Assembly: GCA_937135955.1 (NCBI GenBank)
Contig: CAKZOB010000044.1
Location: 1 to 58,311, forward strand
DNA: 58,311 nt
From: an uncultured Anaerolineales bacterium
Lineage (GTDB): Bacteria > Chloroflexota > Anaerolineae > Aggregatilineales > Aggregatilineaceae
Direction: 5' to 3'
Shown in pieces: positions 39,209 to 45,835 of the stretch. A model generated the notes under the pieces. It did no database searches. It saw only the letters and a list, made by a program, of their open reading frames with translations, and had not been told where the DNA came from. Position 1 is the stretch's first letter; each line of letters opens with the position of its first letter. The position numbers were made by a program, and so were the translations under genes.

Positions 39209-39248
39209 CCAACCTTAAAATTTCCTGGCCCCTGGCAATTTTTAAGGT
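39209..39248. promoter_or_regulatory. Inverted repeat AACCTTAAA, pair 1
   Basis: ACCTTAAAA (39212-39220) and TTTTAAGGT (39240-39248), 19 bases apart, inside the longer CCAACCTTAAAATT/AATTTTTAAGGTGG pairing. Confidence 0.55.
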
Positions 39249-39407
39249 GGGATAACCTCTTTTTTCCCAAGATTTCCAAGAAAACCTAGATTTGGACTGC
39301 TGCCAGGCCGCTTCCCCCCAGATGTTGTGATTACAGACATTGCGAATCGGCATCTGACTCTGCTGAACAGTTTTCAGGAGCGATCAACGCCCGACCGGAC
39401 TCCGTCC

Positions 39408-39436
39408 AACCTTAAAAAACTCGATTCTTTAAGGTT
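39408..39436. promoter_or_regulatory. Inverted repeat AACCTTAAA, pair 2
   Basis: Perfect arms AACCTTAAA (39408-39416) and TTTAAGGTT (39428-39436), 11 bases apart, ending 17 bases before the -35 of the dnaA promoter. The position suits an operator or UP-like element. Confidence 0.6.
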
Positions 39437-39686: not shown

Positions 39687-41186
39687 ATGCTGACCCCCCA
39701 AGATGCCTGGCAGGCCACGCTCGGCCAGCTTCAACTCCAACTCAACCGCGCCACGTTCGAGACCTGGTTGAAGGGGTCGGAGCTGATGAGTTGTGACGAC
39801 GGTCAGTTCGTCATCCGGGTGCGGCACGCTTATGCCAAAGACTGGTTAGAAAAGCACCTGCAGTGGCAGATTGTCGAGAGCTTGGGTCACCTGTGCGAGC
39901 GGGACGTATCCGTCAGCTTTGTGGTGGCCCCGCCCACCCCGCCCGTGCAGCCGCTGCCAGCGGGTACGCTGTTTGCCGAACAGGCGCAGACCGAGCCGGA
40001 GCAAAGCAGTAATGCTTCGCCTGCCAAGCCGGTCAGTCCGGTCACCGCGCCGCAACCCACGCCAGCCATCACAGCGCAGCGCTTCAGCGAATGGGACCCG
40101 CGGTTCAACGACATCAGGCGGAGTGAGTCTGCAACGCGCCCGACGTCTCCCGCAACCACGCCGCTCAACCGGCTGTTCACCTTCGAGCGCTTCGTGACCG
40201 GCCCGTGCAATCAGTTCGCCTTTGCTGCGGCCAAAGCGGTCGCCGAGGCCCCCGGCGAGCAATACAATCCGCTGGTGATCTACGGCGGCGTCGGGCTGGG
40301 CAAGACCCATCTGCTGCACGCTATCGGGCACCTGGCGCAGGCCAACGGCAAAGAAGTGCGCTACGTCACTGGCGAAGAGTTCACCAACGAACTGGTGATG
40401 GCCATCAAAGCGCACAACACCGACGCTCTGCGCGAACGTTACCGGCAGGTAGACGTGCTGCTGCTGGACGACCTGCAATTCCTGGCGGGCAAGAGTAGCA
40501 GCGAAGAAGAATTCCTGCACACGTTCAACACCCTGTTCAGCCTGGGCAAGCAGATCGTCGTGACCTGCAATCAGCATCCCCGGCAACTCACCGACCTGGA
40601 CGATCGCCTGCAATCGCGGCTGGCCGGAGGGTTGCTGGCCGACCTGCAGGTGCCCGAAGAAGAGACGCGCTGTGCCATCCTCAAGGCAAAATCCAACTCG
40701 CGCGGGATGCCACTCCCCGACGAAGTCGCTGCGGCGCTGGCGCGACATCCGGCCACCAACGTACGCGAGATAGAAGGGCTGATCACGCAGATATTGGCCC
40801 GCGCCACCCTCACCGGTCAACCACTCAGCGCGGGGCTGGCCGAGGAGGTGCTCAGTCGCCAGAGCAGCGCGCCCCCTGTTCGCCGCGCGCCGAACCTGAC
40901 CGATGTGTTGCAGGCGACGGCCCGCTACCATCAGCTCTCGCTCGATGATCTGCTGAGCAAACGCCGCACCAAAGAAGTCGTCCGCGCCCGGCAGATCGCC
41001 ATGTACCTGGCCCGCGAAGAGACCGACGCCTCGCTGCCAGAGATCGGCGCGGCCCTGGGCGGGCGCAATCACAGCACTGTGCTCTACGGCTACCAAAAAA
41101 TCGCCAAGAACGTCGAACTCGACCCGACACTGCGGCGCGAAGTCAGCGAAATTCGCCGCCAACTGACCCTGTTGCCCAAGGGGTGA
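39687..41186 (+). CDS. dnaA: Chromosomal replication initiator protein DnaA
   Basis: A 499-residue DnaA from ATG 39687 (GAGGCGAGTTCG before it). Domain I: MLTPQDAWQATLGQLQLQLNRATFETWLKGSEL. A Pro/Ala-rich linker (about 90-150) forms domain II. Domain III AAA+: Walker A GGVGLGKTHLL near 200, Walker B VDVLLLDDLQFLAGK, sensor IVVTCNQHPRQLTDLDDRLQSRLAGGL. Domain IV DNA-binding: RTKEVVRARQIAMYLAREETDASLPEIGAALGGRNHSTVLYGYQKIAK, the DnaA signature. It melts the origin and loads helicase. It is followed by oriC rather than dnaN. Long leader and upstream repeats suggest control of its level. Confidence 0.97.
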   Translation: MLTPQDAWQATLGQLQLQLNRATFETWLKGSELMSCDDGQFVIRVRHAYAKDWLEKHLQWQIVESLGHLCERDVSVSFVVAPPTPPVQPLPAGTLFAEQAQTEPEQSSNASPAKPVSPVTAPQPTPAITAQRFSEWDPRFNDIRRSESATRPTSPATTPLNRLFTFERFVTGPCNQFAFAAAKAVAEAPGEQYNPLVIYGGVGLGKTHLLHAIGHLAQANGKEVRYVTGEEFTNELVMAIKAHNTDALRERYRQVDVLLLDDLQFLAGKSSSEEEFLHTFNTLFSLGKQIVVTCNQHPRQLTDLDDRLQSRLAGGLLADLQVPEEETRCAILKAKSNSRGMPLPDEVAAALARHPATNVREIEGLITQILARATLTGQPLSAGLAEEVLSRQSSAPPVRRAPNLTDVLQATARYHQLSLDDLLSKRRTKEVVRARQIAMYLAREETDASLPEIGAALGGRNHSTVLYGYQKIAKNVELDPTLRREVSEIRRQLTLLPKG

Positions 41187-41213
41187 TCGCTTATCTCTCC
41201 CTTTGTTACTCAG

Positions 41214-41239
41214 CGCCGGCCAGATGAGCCGGCGTTTTT
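41214..41239 (+). terminator. Intrinsic terminator of dnaA
   Basis: CGCCGGC (41214-41220), loop CAGATGA, GCCGGCG (41228-41234), then TTTTT. Confidence 0.85.
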
Positions 41240-41321
41240 GTTTCTCCGCGGGCATGTGCACAACTCGGCCCACTTATCAACAGGGGCGCGACAGCCCACC
41301 GTTTTAACCTGGCACATCCCA

Positions 41322-41532
41322 CCCCCAGATATGGGAGGTGACGATTACCCTGCAGCCCCCTATATCTGGCATTGTCGGTTTCTGACGCGGGGGAAATCGC
41401 GCCCGGATTCTCATCCCTCAGCATTGCCTGTCGAAAGCGGCACACAGTTATCAACGGGCTGTTGATAGCGTCTCTGTGCTCATCTGCGACCAGCCATATC
41501 TGGGGGTGCGCTGGCCAGCCAACCCCCAGATA
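41322..41532. repeat. Iterated CCCCCAGATA motif inside oriC
   Basis: Copies: CCCCCAGATATGG (41322-41334, direct), TATATCTGG (41361-41369, inverted and partial), CCATATCTGGGGG (41494-41506, inverted; exact mirror of the first copy) and CCCCCAGATA (41523-41532, direct). They interleave with DnaA boxes in 210 bases. Confidence 0.7.
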
Positions 41533-41828
41533 CTTCTGCCCGGCCCACGGCTGCCGGAGCCAGAGTCAATTCTGTGGATAACCGCTCCGGTTATCCACAA
41601 CCGTTGTGGATGGATAATGTGGTTAATGAATGGGAAAATTGGGAAACCGTGGGAAATCCCTGGCGGGGGTCAGGCCAGTAAAGGCCACATATACGGGCAG
41701 CAGCGCCCAGCGTCCCGTAGCCTCCGGGAAGTTATCTACATTTCCACAGCCTCTACTACTGCGGCTACATTTTTTAGAAGAGTAGAAACCCGCAAAGTCT
41801 GTTCAGAAAGCGCCCCGCCATCCCCCCA

Positions 41829-42821
41829 TCACAACCCCGGATACTCCAAAGCCAGGACTTCCAGGGCCAGACGGGTATTGGCGTTCCTGGCAAGGTAATC
41901 GAGGGTACGGTTGGTGGCCAACAAGGCGCGTTCGGCTTTCTCCGCGCCAGCGTCTAACGCCAGCGCGGTGATCTGTCCGGCGCAGTCGTAGTTGGTGACA
42001 GGGGCCTGACTGCTTGTCGCCGCCAGCAGCACGTCGCGCCAGAAGCTCTGCCAGATGCCCAGAATCTCGGTCAGGGTTTGCTTGTCCTGAGGCAGGCGTT
42101 CCACCAGCGCGAAGCGTGCGCGCCGCGAGCTTTGCAACAGCGTGTTGAGCGTTGCCAGCGCCTCGTGACGCAGCGCAAGCAGAGCGGGATCGGCCAGCGC
42201 GCGGATGGCCCAGCCGATGCGCCCTCCAGACAGACGCGCCAGTGTCTGCGCCTGCTCAGGGGCAGCGCCCCAGCGTTGCACCAGCGCCTGATAGACGGTT
42301 TGCAAAGGCAGCGGTCGCAGATGCAGCGGCTGACAGCGCGAGACAATGGTCGGCAACAGCAGATCGGCGGAGATAGCTGTCAGCAACAGCACTACGTTCG
42401 GCGCGGGTTCTTCCAGCGTCTTGAGCAGAGCGTTGGCCGCTGCCGGATTGGCCTGGTGGAAGTTGCGCAGAATGGCGACGCGGTAGCGAGCCTCGAAAGG
42501 GCGCAGCGCCAGGGTTTGTTGCAAGGCGCGCACCTGATCGATCTTCAGCGTATTGCCGCCCGCTTCGGCGGCGATCAGCGTCACGTCTGGGTGAGCATCT
42601 TTGGCGATCAGCGTGCAGGCGCGGCACTGCCCACAGGGCGCTGGCTCGCCGGTGCAGTTGAGCGCGGCGGCGAAGGCGCGGGCCAGCGTGGTCTTGCCCA
42701 CCTGATCGGGGCCGGTGATCAGATAGGCATGCCGCATCCGCCCATGCGCCAGCGCGCGGGACAGGTGCGTCACCGCCCATTCGTGCCCGATCACCGGCCA
42801 GTGTCCATCTGCGGGAGTCAC
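41829..42821 (-). CDS. holB: DNA polymerase III delta' subunit (clamp loader)
   Basis: A 330-residue AAA+ clamp-loader subunit from GTG 42821. It starts WPVIGHEWAVTHLSRALAHGRMRHAYLITG; Walker A GPDQVGKTTLARAFAAALNC; zinc-binding CGQCRACTLIAKDAHPD; Walker-B-like RVAILRNFHQANPAAANALLKTLEEP; SRC-type IVSRCQPLHLRPL. The intact Walker A is closer to gamma/tau-like Gram-positive delta' than to E. coli HolB. It is encoded 18 bases after the peptidase gene and transcribed towards oriC. The intrinsic replisome function fits the origin neighbourhood. Confidence 0.92.
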   Translation of the reverse strand: MTPADGHWPVIGHEWAVTHLSRALAHGRMRHAYLITGPDQVGKTTLARAFAAALNCTGEPAPCGQCRACTLIAKDAHPDVTLIAAEAGGNTLKIDQVRALQQTLALRPFEARYRVAILRNFHQANPAAANALLKTLEEPAPNVVLLLTAISADLLLPTIVSRCQPLHLRPLPLQTVYQALVQRWGAAPEQAQTLARLSGGRIGWAIRALADPALLALRHEALATLNTLLQSSRRARFALVERLPQDKQTLTEILGIWQSFWRDVLLAATSSQAPVTNYDCAGQITALALDAGAEKAERALLATNRTLDYLARNANTRLALEVLALEYPGL

Positions 42822-45421: not shown

Positions 45422-45450
45422 TTGGCTTGGCTGGTGAAATCATGTACAAT
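45422..45450 (+). promoter_or_regulatory. Promoter of the spoVS-like gene
   Basis: TTGGCT (45422-45427), 17 bases, TACAAT (45445-45450). The start near 45,457 leaves a leader of about 55 bases and supports the ATG at 45512 as the translation start. Confidence 0.6.
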
Positions 45451-45511
45451 GATGAAGGCTAGCGTTGTTCGTGCGCGTATCACTAACCTTTCAGACTTCG
45501 TGGGGGCTACT

Positions 45512-45835
45512 ATGCAACCGACACATCCATCTCAACTGGCTCCTGACAAACCCGTGACAGAGGAGGCGCGGACGGTCGACATCATCAAAGTCTCGGCTCG
45601 ATCTCGTTCTACGGCAGTAGCCGGTGCTATTGCCGGCGTCGTGCGCGAGCACAACCGGGCGGAGGTCCAGGCCATCGGGGCTGGCGCGGTCAACCAGGCG
45701 ATCAAAGCGGTTGCTATCGCGCGGGGGTATCTGAGCGACGACAATATTGACGTCATCGTGATCCCCTACTTCACCGAAGTGACCATTGACGACCAGGAAC
45801 GCACGGCGCTGCGTATGGTAGTTGAACCTCGCTAA
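45512..45835 (+). CDS. spoVS: SpoVS-like protein (stage V sporulation protein S family)
   Basis: A 107-residue protein. Residues about 22-107 align by eye with SpoVS: VDIIKVSARSRSTAVAGAIAGVVREHNRAEVQAIGAGAVNQAIKAVAIARGYL, then IDVIVIPYFTEVTIDDQERTALRMVVEPR. A non-family N-terminal extension of about 22 residues (MQPTHPSQLAPDKPVTEEAR) precedes it. SpoVS (Alba-like fold) affects septation and sporulation in Bacillus but also occurs in non-sporulating Thermus and Chloroflexota. The role here is unknown, possibly nucleic-acid binding. It has its own promoter and terminator. Confidence 0.9.
   Translation: MQPTHPSQLAPDKPVTEEARTVDIIKVSARSRSTAVAGAIAGVVREHNRAEVQAIGAGAVNQAIKAVAIARGYLSDDNIDVIVIPYFTEVTIDDQERTALRMVVEPR

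Follow-up and report, generated by a model that had tools for sequence, protein, structure and literature searches.

The dnaA-holB region and its repeated palindrome

The stretch of DNA analysed here, hereafter the window, is contig 44 (58,311 bp) of a 4.28-Mb draft genome (G000, the host genome). It carries dnaA (39687..41186, + strand; TIGR00362, 464.5 bits for a cut-off of 343.9), whose likely start is the ATG at 39687 within a mechanically called open reading frame running from 39606, and holB, the gene of DNA polymerase III delta' (41829..42821, - strand; TIGR00678, 192.6 bits for a cut-off of 180.6). The two genes are convergent, both being transcribed toward the intergenic region 41187..41828, which its hallmarks predict to be oriC: a cluster of DnaA boxes, a DnaA-trio and an AT-rich stretch are found together next to dnaA. 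GC skew changes locally near 42 kb (negative at ~34-44 kb and +0.068 in 42-46 kb), but its sign varies elsewhere in the window too. A box search identified seven TTATCNACA-like DnaA boxes with at most one mismatch, at 41274, 41448, 41460, 41573, 41591, 41618 and 41732, among which are TTATCAACA (41274..41282, +), two inverted DnaA-like boxes with one mismatch each (41448..41468) and two inverted TTATCCACA boxes (41573..41599). The last of the seven opens what is likely the unwinding module (41732..41785, +), in which a DnaA-trio-like repeat, CTACTACTGCGGCTAC (41753-41768), precedes the AT-rich stretch; trio words are enriched over the origins compared below. Around this region, we also noted a spoVS gene near oriC (45422-45835), which directly flanks oriC in several genomes of family f34, and two inverted AACCTTAAA...TTTAAGGT repeats upstream of dnaA (39211-39248 and 39408-39435).

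An earlier note on this DNA had described a motif repeated four times and interleaved with DnaA boxes, and both the repetition and the interleaving hold: the copies lie at oriC, among the seven DnaA boxes found between 41274 and 41732. Only two of the four copies are exact, namely the CCCCCAGATATGG copies at 41322-41334 (+) and 41494-41506 (-), which are inverted relative to each other, such that the "mirror images" of the note are exact reverse complements. The other two are imperfect, at 41357-41370 (the reverse complement of which is CCAGATATAGGGGG) and at 41523-41535 (CCCCCAGATACTT). The note had held that equal frequency across the genome would speak against the motif; the count shows that it is not frequent elsewhere, the exact 13-mer occurring in the 4.28-Mb genome at the two oriC copies only and the 13-mer with one mismatch at three further sites, all elsewhere than oriC. 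When up to three mismatches are allowed, the window shows no enrichment of the 13-mer (12 occurrences vs 14.8 expected), and the excess therefore resides in the exact copies, their palindromy and their pairing. The copies are indeed degenerate palindromes, CCCCANATNTGGGG, paired about three helical turns apart, an arrangement that suggested NrdR boxes. Pair 1 consists of boxes at 41322..41337 (+, score 19.8) and 41357..41372 (-, 12.3), 35 bp apart, and pair 2 of boxes at 41491..41506 (-, 17.0) and 41523..41538 (+, a weak 3.0), 32 bp apart. A possible degenerate third pair spans 41651..41697 (centres 41658 and 41689; right-hand box 7.3), and the origin of a relative (G015, locus L161) has three pairs, the third of which is clear. 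Another NrdR-box-like pair lies upstream of dnaA (39283..39330, +; centres 39290 and 39322, 32 bp apart), its first box being weak (score 0.6). Scanned for pairs over its 58,311 bp (spacings of 29-36, both sites above -2, sum above 8), the window yielded four, of which three lie at oriC (pair 1, an alternative register of it and pair 2) and one upstream of dnaA.

Conservation of the boxes in related origins

The oriC was recovered in four of the five genomes of the genus (G000, G002, G003, G004), with the sites present in all four. At the family level (f1, 18 genomes, G000-G017), 15 origins were recovered, those of G001, G013 and G016 not being found. When words were counted de novo in 15 origins (13 from f1 and two from f6), ATATCTGG came out as the top 8-mer, in 11 of the 15, and trio and DnaA-box words as the leading 6- and 7-mers; the position weight matrix (PWM) derived from the origins describes the palindrome CCCC-A-N-AT-N-T-GGGG. 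In an alignment of the four genus origins, 51 of 84 positions are identical within the boxes (61%), 49 of 63 within the DnaA boxes (78%) and 111 of 393 elsewhere (28%). Across the 15 f1 origins, we counted 20 site pairs within 110 bp, with 13 at 31-33 bp and four at 35 bp, the latter being pair 1 of the window's own genus. A pair with a summed score of at least 9 occurs in 13 of the 15 and is lacking at L013 and L018; pairs are kept even in G010, where other genes separate the origin from dnaA, ~3 kb away. Absence from sister origins, the other observation that the note had set against the motif, is thus not what the comparison returned, the motif being conserved.

The two f6 sequences (L024, L035) entered the first PWM, the word count and the scan with the nrd-derived PWM described below; family f6 was later set aside, being excluded from later origin counts and kept among the 52 order genomes compared for pair-model and NrdR matches, and its two sequences remain in the oriC PWM that was applied to nrd promoters. 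The f6 genomes G022 and G028 have 80 and 38 pair-model matches, respectively, and one G022 match outside oriC (L158) abuts an inverted repeat, so that NrdR-like sites may be spread there by a dispersed element. Another word, GTGGGAWA/TWTCCCAC, is also shared and has 21 copies in the 15 f1 origins vs 1.08 in resamples; it occurs in the window at 39247-39254 and 41649-41656, and also in the oriC and nrd promoters of relatives. Among 8-mers in the f1 nrd promoters, GTGGGATA ranks first (9 of 15), and (G)TGGGATAA is also found in the origins of family f2, in genomes without NrdR.

Correspondence with the nrdR-nrdJ promoter

The earlier note had stated that the motif matches nothing known, a statement overturned by the same genome, where the nrdR-nrdJ promoter contains matching NrdR boxes. 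The host genome has a single NrdR match (C88:7373-7795; TIGR00244, 151.5 bits vs 124.65), with both the Zn-ribbon (PF22811) and the ATP-cone (PF03477) matched and with matches to the solved NrdR structures 9gex and 7p37/7p3f, and it adjoins nrdJ, encoding a class II ribonucleotide reductase (RNR). This nrdJ (G000:C88:3779-6664) is one open frame of 1286 aa in which the RNR large-subunit domain is matched in two pieces ~1.35 kb apart. The same split is seen in some relatives and suggests an intein. When the PWM built from origins only was applied to the 400 bp upstream of nrdR, the best pair scored 16.6-41.1 at all 15 f1 loci. At 14 of them, the host's included, its spacing is exactly 32 bp (29-36 allowed) and its score at least 27.8; the exception, G014, has one strong box. 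On 213 control windows, the best score of the same PWM was 12.3. Palindromic words extracted de novo from the nrd promoters, with no oriC input, are CATATATG (9 of 15) and ATATATGG (11 of 15). Reciprocally, a PWM made from 27 nrd-promoter sites detected 40 sites scoring at least 8 in 15 origins, vs 1.34 on average and never more than 4 in 100 Markov resamples, a direction of comparison that is not fully independent since the 27 sites had been chosen with the oriC PWM.

A pair model trained on 26 nrd and dnaA upstream pairs, with zero oriC sequence (R1), gave three places at E<=1 in the host genome, the nrd promoter (E = 5e-10), oriC pair 2 (0.002) and oriC pair 1 (0.007), among the 150 of 468 first-look candidates that were scored; the host's own pair upstream of dnaA is absent from these places. 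In the regions upstream of dnaA, the best-scoring pairs are spaced by 31 or 32 at 23 of 23 loci, several partners being weak; these are 23 of 30 dnaA loci, from which L023, L028, L030 and L032-L035 were excluded for having no upstream box or one unpaired weak box (9.0 at L023, 8.0 at L028).

These results bear on the possibility that the repeats are chance or structural GC-rich palindromes that have no specific binder and that, for instance, form a cruciform or help the DNA to unwind. The lack of enrichment of the relaxed 13-mer (three mismatches) in the window would agree with it, but the cross-scoring of nrd promoters, the specific spacing and the genome-wide specificity all speak against it, and we give this already disfavoured explanation next to no credence. 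We also rejected a strand-unwinding repeat lacking a binder, and nothing was found in support of the strand-unwinding role that the note had offered as its alternative. A DnaA-box variant was likewise rejected, the motif being distinct from TTATCNACA and present alongside it; we put aside CtrA, IHF, Fis and parS sites on what we take to be their consensus sequences.

The classic NrdR box has the consensus aCACwAtATaTwGtgt. The oriC palindrome spans 16 bp, is centred on ATAT and has conserved G/C pairs at a distance of 9 bp, on all of which both PWMs agree, and it departs from this consensus in its outer bases, with CCC/GGG flanks in place of aCA/tGt. The host's own nrd boxes match the consensus at 12 of 16 positions at best, and those of two relatives, ACACCATATACAGTGT in G024 (f8) and CCACTATATATAGGGT in G013 (f1), at 14 of 16. 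The spacing of pair 2 (32 bp) and of pair 1 (35 bp) may be compared with an NrdR norm of 14-17 bp for the spacer. Since the same paired palindrome occupies the nrdR-nrdJ promoter at 14 of 15 f1 loci, we read these sites as NrdR boxes of a lineage type; that the oriC motif is the form taken by the NrdR box in this lineage, with NrdR as the putative binding protein, is well supported by these comparisons. As in known NrdR/RNR operons, there are a central ATAT, G/C pairs 9 bp apart, a site at the nrdR-nrdJ promoter and an NrdR with Zn-ribbon and ATP-cone, and the pairing at about three turns resembles theirs, with pair 1 somewhat wider; unlike in these operons, the boxes also lie within oriC and upstream of dnaA, their flanks are C/G-rich and position 17 of the host NrdR is a threonine.

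In Streptomyces coelicolor, the G/C pairs 9 bp apart are highly conserved in the NrdR box and the specificity of NrdR is set by D15 and R17 (PMC9110341); the G/C pairs found here are in register with those of the S. coelicolor boxes (PMC9110341). Among the NrdRs of the order studied here, D15 is retained in most cases and R17 gives way to T, S or G (T in the host), while the box retains its G/C pairs and has changed flanks, a combination that fits an altered specificity. The replaced R17 and the CCC/GGG flanks in place of aCA/tGt could also be taken to mean that the palindrome at oriC and at the dnaA and nrd promoters is recognized by another regulator, such as a cell-cycle factor, without any involvement of NrdR, and so could the occurrence of some pairs at other genes (e.g., gyrA and the rny neighborhood). 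Against such a factor stand the three-turn pairing, the autoregulated nrdR-nrdJ operators, the G/C pairs in register, the 14 of 16 matches to the classic consensus in the nrd boxes of G024 and G013 and the joint absence of boxes and NrdR from family f2 detailed below, and we consider its existence improbable.

Beyond the family, R1 matches coincide with DnaA-like boxes, counted within 350 bp, in f7 (10-12 boxes in G029, G034, G039 and G052) and in G053 of f8 (11-12). In f34, the matches (G086, G119, G167, G231, G185, G350, G358, G394) come with 6-8 DnaA-like boxes, and that of G447 in f58 comes with nine, the NrdR-like boxes there being single, without a scored pair; the f3 matches (G019, G026, G037) have fewer DnaA-like boxes and degenerate TTTCAACAA-type repeats. 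In f3 and f7, whose origins lie on different contigs from dnaA, the pair is located beside the DnaA-trio, with the DnaA-like boxes on the opposite side. A pair with a sum of at least 9 is found in five of the seven scored f34 origins and not at L290 and L291, and the f7 origin of G060 has a weak pair (6.3/6.5). Because the pair model itself led to the origins of f3, f7 (except G060), G053, f58, most of f34, G010 and G015, these origins provide no denominator; their value is in the DnaA clusters encountered at the matches. At E<=0.02 and under stricter filters, R1 matched in 56 of 199 class-level genomes and in 30 of 251 phylum-level ones, most matches being without a gene assignment. Among 48 class and phylum loci, nine (L218, L220, L225, L235, L311, L312, L317, L321 and L325) have at least six DnaA-like boxes no farther than 350 bp from the best box, and five carry an nrdR as assigned by a regular expression, most of the others being without assignment. 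This distribution also informs a further explanation, in which the boxes would be operators of a flanking promoter that happens to lie by oriC. Operators are the usual role of NrdR boxes and several f34 origins do lie beside spoVS, but the pairs persist with different neighbors in other families, and in the window we rejected a flanking-gene operator since dnaA and holB, its two neighbors, converge on the boxes; we regard this explanation as very unlikely.

Family f2 offers the converse situation. An NrdR match is absent from nine of nine f2 genomes, and R1 finds no match at E<=0.2 in eight of them, the ninth (G018) having one partial match (0.12); among 52 other genomes of the order, 46 have an R1 match at E<=0.2 and 47 have NrdR. 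Two f2 origins, found blind via DnaA boxes, have trio-like repeats and no pair (best single boxes 5.8 and 3.5). The absence of NrdR and of its boxes from f2 is probably one evolutionary event. The blind DnaA-box search covered 30 genomes and gave a match in 16. It includes places without a clear trio in G016, G020, G027 and G033, which were excluded from the origin count, single-match places in G042 and G055, which were scored and have no pair, and three f34 origins in which boxes are present with no pair above the scoring threshold. A G018 place with neither a DnaA cluster nor a trio was likewise excluded from the origin count. Six f8 origins (G024, G030, G035, G040, G049 and G057; five from genus g19, one from g32) have DnaA clusters and trio-like repeats and no NrdR pair, in genomes where NrdR is present.

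A putative nucleotide-responsive step at the origin

NrdR is a widespread ATP-cone repressor of ribonucleotide reductase. The earlier proposal of a lineage-specific initiation regulator is thereby supported as to its kind, an oriC-binding regulator, and does not stand as to its lineage specificity, what looks lineage-specific being only the use at oriC and the C/G-rich flanks. Our preferred reading, to which we give a probability of about 0.72, is that the motif is an NrdR-box variant and that, through box pairs set among the DnaA boxes of oriC (two pairs in the window, with three in a relative and a single one in others), NrdR would read dATP and ATP there. What the sequence itself shows is that the boxes exist, that they are paired, that they share their identity with the nrd operators and that the NrdR-less f2 lacks them; from this, we infer that NrdR would occupy the oriC boxes.

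In this regard, work in other bacteria has shown that dATP together with ATP (or ADP) promotes an NrdR tetramer that binds two boxes and kinks the DNA, and that ATP alone promotes higher oligomers that do not bind, a dodecamer in S. coelicolor (PMC9110341, PMC12176259, PMC12051234). On this basis, NrdR loaded with dATP and ATP would bind oriC and, in addition, the dnaA promoter, such that the dATP/ATP ratio might be read at the origin itself and initiation be tied to the dNTP state of the cell. The kinked tetramer could then act much as IHF does, as an architectural element gated by dATP and placed between the DnaA array and the unwinding module. In Escherichia coli oriC, IHF sits between the DnaA boxes and the unwinding module, and the resemblance of this placement to that of the boxes makes a dATP-gated architectural aid, by which NrdR would license initiation when dNTPs suffice, our first choice among the modes of action, at slightly under even odds. 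A close second is a brake, NrdR hindering orisome assembly at high dATP, for which the late initiation of Caulobacter cells with raised dNTPs may speak, subject to the nrdR deletion result given below; a third and distinctly less probable mode is that the oriC boxes mainly titrate NrdR. In the latter case, NrdR would be bound and the boxes would be passive, a reservoir whose duplication along with oriC relieves nrd repression. The number of oriC pairs, two in the window and three in G015 vs one at nrd, and the weakness of many oriC boxes relative to nrd boxes would suit a reservoir, but titration requires neither placement and phasing inside the DnaA array nor the trio-adjacent position seen in f7 and f3, and a purely passive role strikes us as unlikely.

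Coming back to NrdR as an active reader at oriC, the anatomy is weakest in the spacing of pair 1. For the four NrdRs tested, spacers of 14-17 and 24-27 bp bind well, and binding or repression is much weaker for spacers between 18 and 24 (PMC12051234); with boxes 35 bp apart, pair 1 has a spacer of 19 bp and is therefore off the known optimum. A bolder version, which we advance tentatively and would not bet on, is that NrdR may be an integral orisome component across much of the class, one dATP/ATP sensor serving origin firing and the expression of both dnaA and RNR, and jointly a dATP-gated, DNA-kinking architectural switch placed between the DnaA array and the DnaA-trio, which would amount to a direct dNTP checkpoint at a bacterial origin.

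Sites of a regulator interleaved with DnaA boxes in oriC recall CtrA, Spo0A, SeqA and IHF, none of which, to our knowledge, senses a DNA precursor directly, unlike NrdR, which binds dATP and ATP. A link between replication initiation and RNR expression exists in E. coli, where nrdAB is controlled by DnaA (PMC12176259, PMC11853086); here, the direction would be reversed, the sites of an RNR repressor being found at oriC and dnaA. In Caulobacter, elevated dNTPs delay initiation by a mechanism that the authors call "undefined", and deletion of nrdR acts in the same direction as raised dNTPs (PMC12186491); dNTP level thus affects initiation there as proposed here, but NrdR is not established as the mediator. 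Gene-neighborhood links of nrdR to replication genes are mentioned in PMC4898720, and the main text of a chlamydial ChIP-seq study that includes NrdR contains neither "oriC" nor "origin of replication" (PMC4989314). In a search of mostly open-access literature, we found no report of NrdR at a replication origin. How cells coordinate the onset of replication with the availability of DNA precursors has long been asked, and sites in oriC and upstream of dnaA for a protein whose DNA binding responds to dATP and ATP would directly wire supply to initiation; the boxes described here suggest that, in these bacteria, building-block supply may be wired directly into the start of chromosome replication.

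Boxes were also detected at a few other genes. In two f4 genomes, a pair lies between a divergent gene and a gene that we take to be gyrA (scores 21.4/18.5 at L155 and 22.5/20.4 at L156). Box pairs or single boxes occur in the neighborhood of an RNase Y-like gene, presumably rny, at L100, L145, L146, L150 and L152, those of L100 (host C12:6684) being located by a 178-aa open reading frame without a Pfam match. Finally, in three f1 genomes (L147, L149, L151), boxes stand upstream of a gene that we assume to be response-regulator-like, with an rpsT-like gene adjoining in two of them.
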